From NCBI RefSeq assembly GCF_014844075.1, contig NZ_CP062165.1:3348001-3412000 (forward strand): a stretch of 64,000 nt of DNA, given 5' to 3'. The DNA is from Paenibacillus sp. JNUCC-31. Its GTDB lineage: Bacteria; Bacillota; Bacilli; Paenibacillales; Paenibacillaceae. Of the stretch, positions 1,014 through 59,271 are shown piece by piece (positions within the stretch are counted from its first letter, which is position 1; each line of letters opens with the position of its first letter). The notes below the pieces were generated by a model. That model did not search any database. It saw only the letters and a list, made by a program, of their open reading frames with translations, and was not told the DNA's origin. A program made the translations under genes and the position numbers.

Positions 1014-1208
1014 ATAACGAATCCCTCACACCTTATTCGGCGCTTTTCCACTCCCTTTAAATTCCAAAGAATCTGAAACACGCTATCCCGCATAAAACAT
1101 GCTTTCCCCACCACCTTCGAGGCCATTTCAGTAATATAGCGTGTCTACGATTCGTTAGATTTCAAACAGGCGGTGTATCCCCCGAATAAGGAGTCTCAGG
1201 TTCGTTAG
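1014..1208. repeat. Palindromic interspersed element, copy 1 (TTCGTTAG arms)
   Basis: Two inverted arms of about 58 bp flank a centre of about 79 bp. The left arm carries TAACGAA at 1015-1021 and CAAAGAA at 1065-1071. The right arm carries TTCGTTAG at 1151-1158 and 1201-1208. Within each arm the two boundary motifs are exactly 50 bp apart, and the arms also share CCGAATAAGG at the same internal offset. The inner flanks ACACGCTAT (about 1078) and ATAGCGTGT (about 1136) are also complementary. Copy 2 at 6750-6944 has the same geometry. No coding potential is visible. Confidence 0.8.
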
Positions 1209-5735: not shown

Positions 5736-6479
5736 TTACTCCCCTGGTTTGTCTGTCTTGGGACTGAATACATCCCCGCTGATGCCCTGCACGTACAACA
5801 CTTCGCCACTTTCCAGCACGAACCGCCATGCCGGCATCGCAACCTGCATATCTGAATTGAACAACTGGCCGTAATAGCCCAGCTGGATGTCTTTTACAAT
5901 TGCATCGTTCGGCAAAAAGTTCTCAATCAGCGTGCCCAGCGCCTTTGACGCTGGAAGCACCTGCTGATCGCTCTCCTCTGCTGTCGTAATCTGCACCGGA
6001 GTCTGACGGTAACCCGTCATTTTCTGATCGCTGTAGAACAGCTCCAGACTGACATTGAAGAGTGGCCATTTGCCATCCACCAACGGATGCAGCACAAATG
6101 CCCCGTCCTCCGCCATCAGCTGATCCAATCGATACGTGCCGATCTGAGGAATCTCGCCTTCCAGCGCATCCTCCAGCTCGCTTTGCGAGAAGATCAGCTT
6201 GCTGTCCACAGGCTTTTCCAATTCAACCTCAATACCTGTCTTGTTATCTTCAATGAACTCATACGACAGCTTCGGCAGCTTAGGCGTCTCATTCGGAATA
6301 GGAGCCAGCACCTGAATGCCCTTTTCCTCCATCGCCTGCTGCGTATTATCCGCCAGCGAGGTGAAGTCCAGATTGGCTCCGGCCGTTTCCCGCGCATCCA
6401 TCCAGATCTGGTATCCCAGCACCAGATTGAGCAGCAGGAAGGCATAGATCAACACATTTTTCGCCCGTCCCCAATCCAA
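5736..6479 (-). CDS. walI: WalI (YycI) regulator of the WalK kinase
   Basis: WalI is a bitopic membrane protein that, with WalH, binds and restrains the sensor kinase WalK. One transmembrane segment near the N-terminus (NVLIYAFLLLNLVLGYQIW) is followed by an extracellular YycI domain. I place the start at the TTG of TTG-GAT-TGG: GGAGGTG lies 6 nt upstream and the resulting start M-D-W matches the B. subtilis protein. This gives 247 residues. Upstream ATG codons at 6494 and 6524 would put the ribosome-binding site inside the gene. Unlike the usual walRKHIJ operon, 578 bp with a palindromic element separate it from walH. Confidence 0.92.
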   Translation of the reverse strand: MDWGRAKNVLIYAFLLLNLVLGYQIWMDARETAGANLDFTSLADNTQQAMEEKGIQVLAPIPNETPKLPKLSYEFIEDNKTGIEVELEKPVDSKLIFSQSELEDALEGEIPQIGTYRLDQLMAEDGAFVLHPLVDGKWPLFNVSLELFYSDQKMTGYRQTPVQITTAEESDQQVLPASKALGTLIENFLPNDAIVKDIQLGYYGQLFNSDMQVAMPAWRFVLESGEVLYVQGISGDVFSPKTDKPGE

Positions 6480-6684
6480 ACCATTCACCTCCATAAGTTC
6501 ACTGTCTGCACTACTCTCAACCACTCTTTGTAAATAACTGCTCTATGTCCACGACAGCACTACGCGTTCACCACCGTAAACTGTCTACCTCAAAAATTCC
6601 GCTTCACCAGCGATAATACATGTCCCTACATGTGGCTGACCACTGTTGATCTGCAGCAGGCACCGCGCGCCGGGAACCTTATCG

Positions 6685-6714
6685 TATCTACTTTACATTA
6701 TCTTGGTTCGTCAA
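6685..6714 (-). promoter_or_regulatory. Possible promoter for walI-walJ
   Basis: On the minus strand TTGACG (6709-6714) is followed after 18 bp by TAGATA (6685-6690). The -35 is good and the -10 is weak. It lies just outside palindromic element copy 2 and about 200 bp before walI. Confidence 0.35.
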
Positions 6715-6749
6715 CATGAAGATGATGACACGCTTATCGTTATTTCCGG

Positions 6750-6944
6750 CTAACGAACTGTATACACCTAATTCACTCCATTTTCCACAAGTTTGTAATC
6801 TAATGAATCTGAGAGATCTTATTGGTGGAATTTATAGGGTTATCGTTGGTTCTGACCCCTTTATCGCTGAAATAAAGTCGCTGAAGTTCGTTAGATTTCG
6901 AGTTTGATGCTAATCCAGCATTTAAGGTGTGTCAGATTCGTTAG
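6750..6944. repeat. Palindromic interspersed element, copy 2 (TTCGTTAG arms)
   Basis: It has the same build as copy 1. TAACGAA lies at 6751-6757 and TAATGAA at 6801-6807 in the inverted left arm; TTCGTTAG lies at 6887-6894 and 6937-6944 in the right arm. The motifs within an arm are 50 bp apart and the inner motifs 86 bp apart, identical to copy 1. The left arm read backwards and the right arm share GATTC.TTAGATT and AGGTGT near their ends. The centre is not visibly conserved between copies. Confidence 0.8.
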
Positions 6945-7057
6945 CGTTTTAACCCGGCAAACCACCCTTGGAGCAGTTCATATATAGCGATTAGAAGGTT
7001 GTCCTTACCGCGAGTGGATAGTTGCAGCCCACCCTTATGTTTAATGACTATAACCCA

Positions 7058-8338
7058 TCAAGAAACGGTGGTCTCCTCCCCGTTGCCGAAACGGATTACC
7101 CATACCGGGATCAGCTTCAGCCCGTCCTCAATGCTGGATGGACGGTACGCCGGATACACATCTACGACCTTACGGTTGCTGCCCGCTACCTTCTGGATGA
7201 GAGCCTTGAGCTTGTCTCCACCAGGCAATTTGACCGACTTCTTGGTCTCGGCGCCTTCGTTCAGGTATTCGAGCGAACGTTCATAGCTGGACACCGTCTC
7301 CTGCTGCATCTCCATGCTGATCGTGCCGAACCTGAACTGCATCGAGTCCATAATCGGGAAGCTGCTGTAATATTGCTGGAACTGAAGTTTCGTCTTCGTA
7401 TCGGTAGTATCCAGCATCATGCGCGAACGACCTTTCCAGCCGCCATGCTGATTGACAAAATCAACTGCGGAGAGTGCATCCTTTGCTGCATCAATCTGTC
7501 CCGCAGGCGGTGCCGCCGGGTCGGTATAACTAATCCAGCGCTGTTCCTGTTTGACTTGCAGACTGCGTTTGCTGTCCGTATAGATCTCCGATCCATCCTT
7601 TTCCCGAATGTTCCGGGTCATGCTTGGATCAAAGAACAGGCTGCGCTGCATCTGCTCGACAGTGAACTGGCCTGTTGGCACATCAGCTTCAATCGTTTCC
7701 AACGATTCAGCCGGAATATAATATCCGCCATCCATCAACGTATAAGGCGTCCAGTTGCTGCCAAAGTCAACGTGCTGCTGCACGTCCTGTACCGTCAGAT
7801 CCGCCTGTGTTGCCTCGTAGACCACATCACCTTTGGCGCTGAAGAACAGTGCGTGAGCCTTTGTTTCATTTTTGACCGTATAGATCGAGATTCGGTTAAT
7901 CGTCTCTCCCTGGAAGAGAGAGTCTGTCCCGAGCCGCATCACACGCTGTAACAACGCTACAGGGATGCCCTCCTTGAACGACAGCTCAAAGCCAGGATTC
8001 TCCTTGCGTATCTGATCCCATTTGACGGATTGTACGCTACGACGCTGGAAATCATCAAATGTACGCCCCTGCAACCGTGAATAGATCAGCTGATAGAATG
8101 TATTGCCCGGATAAAATACCGTATGTTTATCCTCTCCAAGATGAATAATCATCTGATCGGGGAAAATTAGTTCTTCAATATTGCGTTCCTGGCCCATATT
8201 CTCAGTCTTTACATAGTTCGTCTCTGACGTCACAATCGAATCGCCCCCACCAGGCAAACGATAGATCAGAAAGTAGCTTTGCACCAAACTGGCAACGACA
8301 AGGGAAGCAAGCACCAGGGATTTAATCCGCTCTTTCAA
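7058..8338 (-). CDS. walH: WalH (YycH) regulator of the WalK kinase
   Basis: WalH forms a membrane complex with WalI and WalK and dampens WalK activity. This 426-residue protein has one N-terminal transmembrane segment (SLVLASLVVASLVQSYFLIY) and a long extracellular part, as in the YycH family. The start is TTG, supported by GGAGGGG a few bases upstream. Its first 17 bp overlap the end of walK, so translation is probably coupled. The gap that follows before walI is unusual. Confidence 0.93.
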   Translation of the reverse strand: MKERIKSLVLASLVVASLVQSYFLIYRLPGGGDSIVTSETNYVKTENMGQERNIEELIFPDQMIIHLGEDKHTVFYPGNTFYQLIYSRLQGRTFDDFQRRSVQSVKWDQIRKENPGFELSFKEGIPVALLQRVMRLGTDSLFQGETINRISIYTVKNETKAHALFFSAKGDVVYEATQADLTVQDVQQHVDFGSNWTPYTLMDGGYYIPAESLETIEADVPTGQFTVEQMQRSLFFDPSMTRNIREKDGSEIYTDSKRSLQVKQEQRWISYTDPAAPPAGQIDAAKDALSAVDFVNQHGGWKGRSRMMLDTTDTKTKLQFQQYYSSFPIMDSMQFRFGTISMEMQQETVSSYERSLEYLNEGAETKKSVKLPGGDKLKALIQKVAGSNRKVVDVYPAYRPSSIEDGLKLIPVWVIRFGNGEETTVS

Positions 8339-57924: not shown

Positions 57925-59271
57925 GTGGACAGCCATACTTCTGATTTATGGCAGCAAATTTTATCAATCATACAAAACAAACTCAGCAAACCCAGCTTTG
58001 ACACTTGGTTCAAAGCAACCAAAGCAACCAAGCTGAATGATCGTTCAATCGTCATTTCCGCGCCAACCACGTTTGCCGTCGAATGGCTGGAGAGCCGTTA
58101 CACGAAACTGGTTGGATCAACGGTATATGAACTGCTTGGCAAACAGGTCGATGTGAAATTTGTCATCGAAGAGAATAAGCCTGTTGAACCGGACCCTCAA
58201 CTGCCGGCACCAACGCCTACGGTTGTACAGGAAGAAGCGGTACTCAGCATGCTTAATCCAAAATATACGTTCGATACATTTGTCATTGGTCCGGGCAACC
58301 GTTTTGCCCACGCCGCGTCGCTGGCGGTCGCTGAAGCGCCCGCCAAAGCATACAATCCTCTGTTTCTATATGGGGGAGTAGGTCTCGGCAAAACTCACTT
58401 GATGCATGCGATCGGACATTACGTACTGGAACATGATCCGGGCAGTAAAGTCGTTTATTTGTCGTCTGAGAAATTTACGAATGAGTTCATTAACTCCATC
58501 CGTGATAACCGTGGGGAGAGTTTCCGCAACAAATATCGTAGTGTCGATATCCTGCTCATAGATGATATTCAGTTCTTAGCTGGAAAAGAATCGACACAAG
58601 AGGAATTTTTCCATACGTTTAATGCGCTGCATGAGGAACGGAAACAGATCATCATCTCCAGCGACAGACCACCGAAGGAAATTCCGACACTGGAAGAACG
58701 GCTTCGTTCCCGTTTTGAATGGGGATTAATTACGGATATTCAGCCTCCGGATCTGGAGACACGGATTGCAATTTTGCGTAAAAAAGCACGTGCGGAAAAC
58801 CTGGATATTCCGAATGAAGCGATGATGTATATCGCTAATCAGATTGACACCAATATTCGCGAACTGGAAGGGGCCCTCATTCGGGTCGTTGCTTATTCTT
58901 CGCTGACGAATCAAGATGTGACCACGCATCTGGCCGCTGAAGCATTGAAGGATATCATTCCGTCCAGCCGTCCAAAAATGATCACTATTCACGACATCCA
59001 ACAAAAGGTCGGCGAGTATTACAGCCTTAAGCTTGAAGATTTCAAAGCACGGAAACGGACCAAGGCCGTTGCCTTTCCAAGACAGATTGCCATGTATCTC
59101 TCTCGAGAACTAACAGACTTCTCTCTACCCAAGATTGGGGAGGCATTCGGAGGCCGAGATCACACGACGGTCATACATGCGCACGAAAAGATCTCACAGG
59201 CGATTAAAAACGATCAGGATCTCTATAAAGTTATCAACAACTTAACCGAAAAAATTAAGAATCCAACCTGA
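57925..59271 (+). CDS. dnaA: Chromosomal replication initiator DnaA
   Basis: DnaA binds the boxes in the origin, forms an ATP-bound filament and opens the DNA. In the 448 residues, domain I (1-85) contains [10 protein letters not shown], a linker is Pro/Glu-rich (about 86-112), the AAA+ domain has [11 protein letters not shown] and [14 protein letters not shown], and the DNA-binding domain IV ends with [20 protein letters not shown] and [15 protein letters not shown]. It starts with GTG (57925), with AAAGGAG upstream. All motifs are intact. Confidence 0.98.

Follow-up and report, generated by a model that had tools for sequence, protein, structure and literature searches.

A multicopy element of four inverted, exactly spaced units in Paenibacillus and its relatives, a probable wrapped protein-DNA site

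Introduction

Nucleosome positioning sequences carry an alternation of A/T and G/C every ~10 bp, in antiphase, and chromosomal sites of the parS, matS and ram type are multicopy, position-biased and single short palindromes. In Bacillus and other Firmicutes, tandem repeats of 52 nt and of 20-21 nt keep a constant size while their sequence varies (Subirana and Messeguer 2021, PMC8161180); they are particularly abundant in Paenibacillus, are of unknown function and have been termed enigmatic, and a protein polymerising on DNA is one suggestion made for them. Those of 52 nt form head-to-tail arrays of at least four repeats of 51-53 nt (PMC8161180). Repetitive extragenic palindromes (REPs) are palindromes of 20-40 bp tagged GTAG or CGTC (PMC2817692, PMC3733652), and some insertion sequences target them (PMC1525189). 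In this study, we describe an element of 185 or 195 bp in Paenibacillus sp. JNUCC-31, two copies of which lie in a stretch of 64,000 nucleotides (NZ_CP062165.1, positions 3,348,001 to 3,412,000; hereafter the window).

The element is a dyad of four sites at fixed spacing, with one of two centre lengths and a phased A/T signal, and its units and spacing are conserved across species; across the order, the words at its sites change together within genomes while the spacing stays. It resembles REPs and the bacterial interspersed mosaic elements (BIMEs) in being multicopy, intergenic and inverted in arrangement, and an IS110-family transposon lies inside an element of one genome (G036; G and L numbers are our handles for genomes and loci), yet it is built of 24-bp units in a rigid frame of 185 or 195 bp, and these units are not tagged palindromes. 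With nucleosome positioning sequences it shares the ~10-bp alternation of A/T and G/C, but it has word-specific units at fixed places and no histone is known to be tied to the sites; with parS, matS and ram-type sites it shares multiple copies and a position bias, but it has four phased units in a fixed frame. Its likeness to nucleosomal DNA, or to strong gyrase sites, should be taken as a comparison of pattern and not as membership. That no named family fits, as the initial annotation of the window had put it, agrees with Rfam, which gave no match to the elements, and with the open-access literature, where we found no description of the element (subscription papers lie outside this scope). 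On balance we favour the view that each element is an architectural site, wrapped over its ~19-20 helical turns by one nucleoprotein complex.

Results

The fixed-geometry element proposed in the initial annotation is real, with octamer coordinates that were right to within 1 bp in both copies, and it is also only a small part of a larger object. Both copies in the window are 195 bp long, have their four octamers at identical positions, and are identical at 102 of 195 bases. With up to three mismatches allowed, the two-octamer pattern occurs four times in the window against 0.42 expected, and none of 100 shuffles reached four; the octamer alone (up to one mismatch) occurs 57 times against 44 expected, a count that 5 of 100 shuffles reached. 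Since the octamer by itself is barely above chance in the window, the signal resides in the spacing.

Across the genome of 7,551,121 bp, the pattern TTCGTTAG-N42-TTCGTTAG with at most two mismatches gave 97 matches, against 10 for the reversed control. A sequence-only model built from 29 half-elements gave 135 matches, and pairing, based on 134 of these, yielded 56 paired elements and 22 single half-matches. The genome thus holds many copies and not only two, and relatives carry the element as well. Chance and local duplication were considered and are excluded.

Each element consists of four 24-bp units (consensus AATAACGTGTCTGAGGTTCGTTAG) arranged as two inverted pairs, with two units per half and the halves facing; internally the unit is only an imperfect inverted repeat (TAACG-N11-CGTTA). 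In 106 of 112 halves the two units match best at an offset of exactly 50 bp, and the remaining six halves have 48, 49 or 51 bp, unlike the 51-53 nt of the constant-size repeats (PMC8161180). Where those repeats stand head to tail, at least four at a time, each half here has two direct units, with three in a single element of the genome (6286008), and the dyad symmetry and fixed centre of 69 or 79 bp are features of the element and not of the 52-nt repeats as described (PMC8161180). The central gap between inner octamers is 79 bp in 25 of the 56 elements, 78 in 21 (among them 6286008, which bears a fifth unit), 80 in two, 77 in one and 69 in seven, and is never 70-76; the 69 and 77-80 classes (7 versus 49 of 56) differ by one helical turn. 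A scan of 84,980 species gave at least 114 stretches, of which 80 are listed (71 from Paenibacillus, among them P. amylolyticus, P. pabuli and P. xylanexedens, 5 from Cohnella and 4 from Saccharibacillus). In the 80 loci of these named organisms, a pattern permitting gaps of 67-80 found 88 elements, 63 with a gap of 68-70 and 25 with a gap of 78-79, whereas no gap fell within 71-77; this and all later counts for named organisms are among the matches listed. Total length is 185 or 195 bp.

Throughout the element, in the spacers as well as the units, A/T-rich positions alternate with G/C-rich ones at intervals of ~10 bp, and the A/T profile of the 112 halves flattens a few bases past the outer octamer. 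Over the 56 elements, the A/T spectrum has its peak at 10.0 bp (power 1.77, against 0.26 in the flanks), and with the units masked the wave still measures 1.52, against a largest value of 0.37 among 200 shuffles. In named organisms (54 elements with gap 69 and 17 with gap 79), the distance from the dyad to the A/T maxima is 0, 11 and 21 bp in the gap-69 class and 5, 16 and 26 bp in the gap-79 class: the longer class is the shorter one plus one additional wave.

Phased A/T-G/C alternation, a length near the reach of gyrase and a location between genes, often convergent ones, would also suit strong sites for DNA gyrase, as Gram-positive equivalents of BIME-2. In E. coli, the gyrase motif is likewise phased and dyad symmetric, on wrapped DNA, and gyrase cuts some BIME-2 elements (PMC6379681). 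That motif, however, is degenerate, 130 bp long and periodic at 10.75 bp except in its centre (PMC6379681), whereas the element spans 185-195 bp with a period of ~10.0-10.2 bp, explicit words and waves that run through the dyad. Explicit words that vary between lineages, and absence from many relatives, are moreover ill suited to a universal enzyme, and we hold the gyrase explanation to be very improbable.

The model matched (E<=0.001) in 29 of 59 genomes, our own included, namely in 20 of 35 others of the genus and, from the order's other families, in 8 of 23. Among 398 genomes of the class, a draw that included few other families of the order, 28 matched (E<=1e-5), all from the same family. 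Seven genomes had few model matches. Loci from six of them were compared (G051 left out), and in four of these genomes the octamers had the form TCCGTTA(G), which led us to widen the searches by word and by spacing. A pattern for half-elements that admits both TTCGTTAG and TCCGTTAG gave 132 matches in G044, 114 in G041, 65 in G046, 45 in G038, 21 in G039 and 20 in G040, against 0-6 in controls. The places listed for G038, G039 and G046, which belong to other families, read TCCGTTAG, another word in the same frame. G010, G020 and G029 had 72-75 model matches but only 0-4 by this pattern, which makes an additional word likely in these three.

A spacing-only search (CTAA-46-CTAA-72 to 91-TTAG-46-TTAG) gave matches in 97 of the 296 genomes drawn from the order, with up to 70 elements each. 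Its reversed control matched 17 genomes, once each except for G577 with 11, so that single matches are weak and many matches are not. Ten of the 15 relatives in the genus that were negative by the model were in this draw, and none of the ten gave a match. In 30 loci from the spacing-only search, 33 of 34 matches had a gap equivalent to 68-70; the odd one, L359 (74), is chance-like, and L379 (69) is a tandem repeat. A/T power at 10.0 bp in these 33 was 2.68, against 0.40 in the flanks. The words found across the order are CTAACGAA, CTAACGGAA, CTAACGGAC, CTAACGGCGG, CTAACGGTT and CTAACGATT; the geometry is unchanged, and all share the frame CTAACG, ~10 bases, CG(C/T)TATT. Words that differ by genome within a constant geometry are what a trans-acting, sequence-specific factor would leave. 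G471 and G559 each have two word families, CTAACGAATC and CTAACGGCGG/CTAACGGAAG, in elements of equal length, as if two paralogous binders were present. Among 398 genomes of the phylum, the spacing-only search matched seven, four of the same genus and three distant ones, the latter with one hit each and no unit sequence. Within these samples the element is confined to one order, and its geometry is more widespread than any word.

Of three readings offered in the initial annotation, a protein bound at fixed helical phase is supported, an old mobile element is supported in part, and a long RNA hairpin is not. For the first, the support lies at the level of sequence: the exact 50-bp spacing, the gap of 69 or 79, the 10-bp A/T wave and the words that change with lineage. 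A structured RNA, such as a long hairpin in the 3' untranslated region of transcripts, is in keeping with the folding of both window copies, each of which outdoes all 200 of its own shuffles (z -4.6), a behaviour common to inverted motifs. Covariation, however, is absent. The two arms of an element match in their spacers at 0.279, against 0.321 (standard deviation 0.017) for arms of different elements, and when arms were swapped among 46 elements of the genome with gaps of 78 or 79, own arms out-folded swapped ones in only 17 of 46 cases on one strand and 16 of 46 on the other. Rfam, as said above, is silent on the elements, and we consider an RNA origin of the pattern scarcely credible. Of the outcomes that the annotation had counted against its own proposal, covariation is indeed lacking, whereas copies are many and relatives have them; without covariation the RNA reading falls, and the element itself stands.

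The wrapped-site reading draws further support from positions shared between species. The region of copy 2 was sought in 60 genomes of the genus, of which 56 matched, and 30 loci, our own included, were compared. An octamer scan found an element between the same genes in 13 of the 30; the position is empty in the other 17, where the best octamer score is 17-20 of 32. Twelve of the 13 elements have a centre of 78-80 bp, with 31 or 32 of 32 octamer bases in 11 and 24 in L120, and sequence next to these twelve diverges immediately outside the octamers on the left and on the right. At this position (window 6200-7500), L105 (G012) has a centre of 68 bp and 28 of 32 octamer bases, the other length class. 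In G016, 17 of 36 paired elements stand at positions shared with elements of our genome, and at these positions mean identity is 90% in the octamers, 62% in other element bases and 32% in the adjoining 30-bp flanks; two of the 17 have a gap of 69 against 79. Over 3,998 comparisons, non-orthologous elements of the two genomes agree at 45% of non-octamer bases, with a standard deviation of 6.6 points and a 99th percentile of 68%. Outside the octamers, eight of the 17 shared positions lie above this percentile (0.70-0.80) and three lie at 0.60-0.64.

These data bear directly on the notion of an old non-autonomous mobile element, a part of which holds: some unlinked copies are near-identical, whereas others persist at shared positions with octamers and spacing conserved. 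In such a family, resembling REPs or miniature inverted-repeat transposable elements (MITEs), the units would be transposase sites without host function, the geometry would be required for transposition, and the location at gene ends would reflect tolerance or target choice. Three copies of one group, subfamily A, are 97-99% identical at unlinked loci, and the likeness within this subfamily extends some tens of bases into flanks that by eye resemble imperfect inverted ends; other copies end at the outer octamer. Patchy presence among genomes and tandemly duplicated copies in G036 point the same way. Yet octamers are far better conserved than flanks at the 17 shared positions, exact spacing prevails among halves whose spacers have diverged, where dead copies should gather indels, and the three recent copies have no target-site duplication that is consistent by eye. 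No transposase was identified, though no systematic search for one was made. We regard a purely mobile family as unlikely.

Several observations concern the surroundings and the carriers of individual copies. In subfamily A (e.g. 2738060, 4716011 and 4929668 in our genome), hairpins like GGATGTCCCATAAGTCATGAATATGACGGGGGACATCC lie some tens of bases beyond the left end and like GAGACAGCCCC beyond the right, and several further elements have terminator-like hairpins at a comparable distance outside. Direct tandem duplicates of elements occur in G036 (G036:C1:411029-411946, 674181-674551, 1204541-1204986 and 2230659-2231109), some with an extra 50-bp unit. In the same genome, an IS110-family transposon (match to NF033542) interrupts the inner octamer in each of two elements, at an identical point, GTTC|TTAG (L172:10582-12459 and L173:9194-11001). 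With a likeness of 96.8% over 2,158 bp, the two regions may represent one insertion, later duplicated. A search of plasmids gave no match to copy 2. Viral contigs contain 16 loci with the two-octamer pattern, as a raw count, and only L121 among them also matches the model (E<=1); this weak match (L121:8797-8990, E 5.1e-06) is on a contig filed as viral (IMGVR_UViG_2911024274_000003).

The position of elements relative to genes, which the initial annotation had proposed to check, is distinctive. By a simple gene caller of our own, all 56 elements of the genome are intergenic, flanked by convergent genes in 33 cases, by tandem genes in 23 and by divergent genes in none; 202 other consecutive gene pairs in the same stretches comprise 20 convergent, 141 tandem and 41 divergent. 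In named organisms, 30 of the 88 elements were excluded as too close to the locus edge, and the 58 that could be placed are convergent in 21 cases, tandem in 29 and divergent in eight, with 13 convergent and 29 divergent among 112 element-free gaps.

The elements also favour one part of the chromosome. With dnaA located in the window (57949-59256), the origin-proximal half holds 44 of the 56 elements, as it does 31 of 34 in G025 and 48 of 55 in G016, among the matches listed (Kolmogorov-Smirnov p < 1e-5 for each of the three); the origin of G025 and G016 was set at the contig end through the ortholog of the window region and not through dnaA. By subfamily, 14 of 16 A copies and 26 of 32 remaining copies are origin-proximal. 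Subfamily B (e.g. 1236345, 6664872 and 6926103 in our genome) has TTCCTTAG-type octamers and different flanks. A bias of this kind, together with dyad sites and a fixed number of units, would be expected of a segregation or anchoring site of the origin region, with a role like that of parS or ram and with or without wrapping. Such a role sits poorly with ~50 sites spread over megabases, some of them near the terminus, with the lack of bias in subfamily B and with the many relatives that have no element, and we judge it improbable.

The features of the two copies in the window are given in Table 1. The left half of copy 1 is degenerate, with three mismatches summed over its two octamers. Copy 2 lies between two genes of the same strand, just downstream of walK (NF033092, 8322-10172). 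The open reading frames that flank it, 7058-8338 and 5736-6524, had no NCBIfam match and resemble yycH and yycI by position only.

Table 1. The two element copies in the window and their units (window coordinates)
Feature	Position	Strand	Description
Element copy 1	1014..1208	.	195 bp, four units, central gap 79
Copy 1 outer left unit	1014..1037	-	octamer 1014-1021(-), 1 mismatch
Copy 1 inner left unit	1064..1087	-	octamer 1064-1071(-), 2 mismatches, degenerate
Copy 1 inner right unit	1135..1158	+	octamer 1151-1158(+)
Copy 1 outer right unit	1185..1208	+	octamer 1201-1208(+)
Element copy 2	6750..6944	.	195 bp, four units, central gap 79; position occupied in 12 further species' loci
Copy 2 outer left unit	6750..6773	-	octamer 6750-6757(-)
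Copy 2 inner left unit	6800..6823	-	octamer 6800-6807(-), 1 mismatch
Copy 2 inner right unit	6871..6894	+	octamer 6887-6894(+)
Copy 2 outer right unit	6921..6944	+	octamer 6937-6944(+)

Discussion

The likely reading of these data, drawn from sequence patterns, is a wrapped protein-DNA site. A sequence-specific, multimeric DNA-binding protein would hold the four recognition sites, and the DNA between them would be wrapped into a nucleosome-like coil of a given handedness. The putative binder would be patchily present in the order and drifting in specificity, and would act at roughly fifty intergenic sites, mainly in the origin-proximal half and away from divergent promoters. This location suggests a role in chromosome architecture or topology rather than in the control of a single promoter, although function is the least certain part of our proposal.

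Several findings weigh against this interpretation, or limit it. No model match was found in 15 of 35 relatives of the genus, and no spacing-only match in 199 of 296 genomes of the order, a search that misses imperfect copies; with many genomes of the order lacking it by these searches, the element is dispensable. Clustering of 443 neighbour proteins from the 80 loci gave no candidate for the binder. Elements of other organisms avoid divergent gaps less strictly (8 of 58, among the matches listed), subfamily B has no origin bias (4 of 8), and the bias itself could stem from retention in a conserved part of the chromosome. Near-identical copies and MITE-like flanks show that some copies spread like mobile DNA. 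Six of the 17 positions shared with G016 are at background outside the octamers (0.38-0.49) and may be replacements or saturated orthologues. Lastly, the exact 10.0-bp peak is partly built in, because the units recur every 50 bp; the informative points of the wave are the dominance of the fifth harmonic and its crossing of the centre. As for the neighbour proteins themselves, the largest clusters resemble, by eye, ABC transporters and permeases, and the loci of six weak-match genomes (G051 left out) have no common neighbour gene by eye.

The most similar described systems are the constant-size 52-nt repeats, which share with the element a constant size with variable sequence, several families per genome, short words in common and a patchy presence among species (PMC8161180). 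In the 27 consensus units published for these repeats (PMC8161180), the fifth A/T harmonic (10.4 bp) is the strongest of 25, at 3.00, against a mean of 1.03 and a maximum of 1.61 in 500 shuffles. The repeats and the elements may thus share a five-turn logic, a link that we draw from this harmonic test. Arrays with a period of 45-56 are scarce, numbering 13 in 2.3 Mb of gathered sequence. Tandem arrays of 46-51-nt units in or near carriers of the element (L265:1078-1280, which contains GATTCGTTAGATTTTG, L375:795-1052, L281:1672-1943 and L140:2022-2200) may bridge the elements and the constant-size repeats. Taken to its full extent, our proposal would describe a sequence-programmed, nucleosome-like particle, in which a multimeric binder with a lineage-drifting word wraps DNA in lengths of exactly 185 or 195 bp, at some fifty sites per chromosome that are biased towards the origin, with the five-turn Bacillus repeats of 52 nt as its polymeric relatives; we put this fuller version forward tentatively, as possible but doubtful.

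Each known repeat family with which we compared the element fails on a defining feature or escaped testing. We call it a new kind of chromosomal site; a stricter reader would file it as a variant of the constant-size repeats. If our interpretation is correct, these bacteria would possess a DNA-wrapping code readable from sequence, made of four words and a 10-bp A/T wave in fixed helical phase and kept as the words change. The element would offer a bait of known length and symmetry for isolation of the protein, with insertions of 10 bp versus 5 bp as a built-in control, and five helical turns would give a physical reason for the constant-size repeats of Bacillus. It would also provide a handle on chromosome sites beyond the few kinds that are known.
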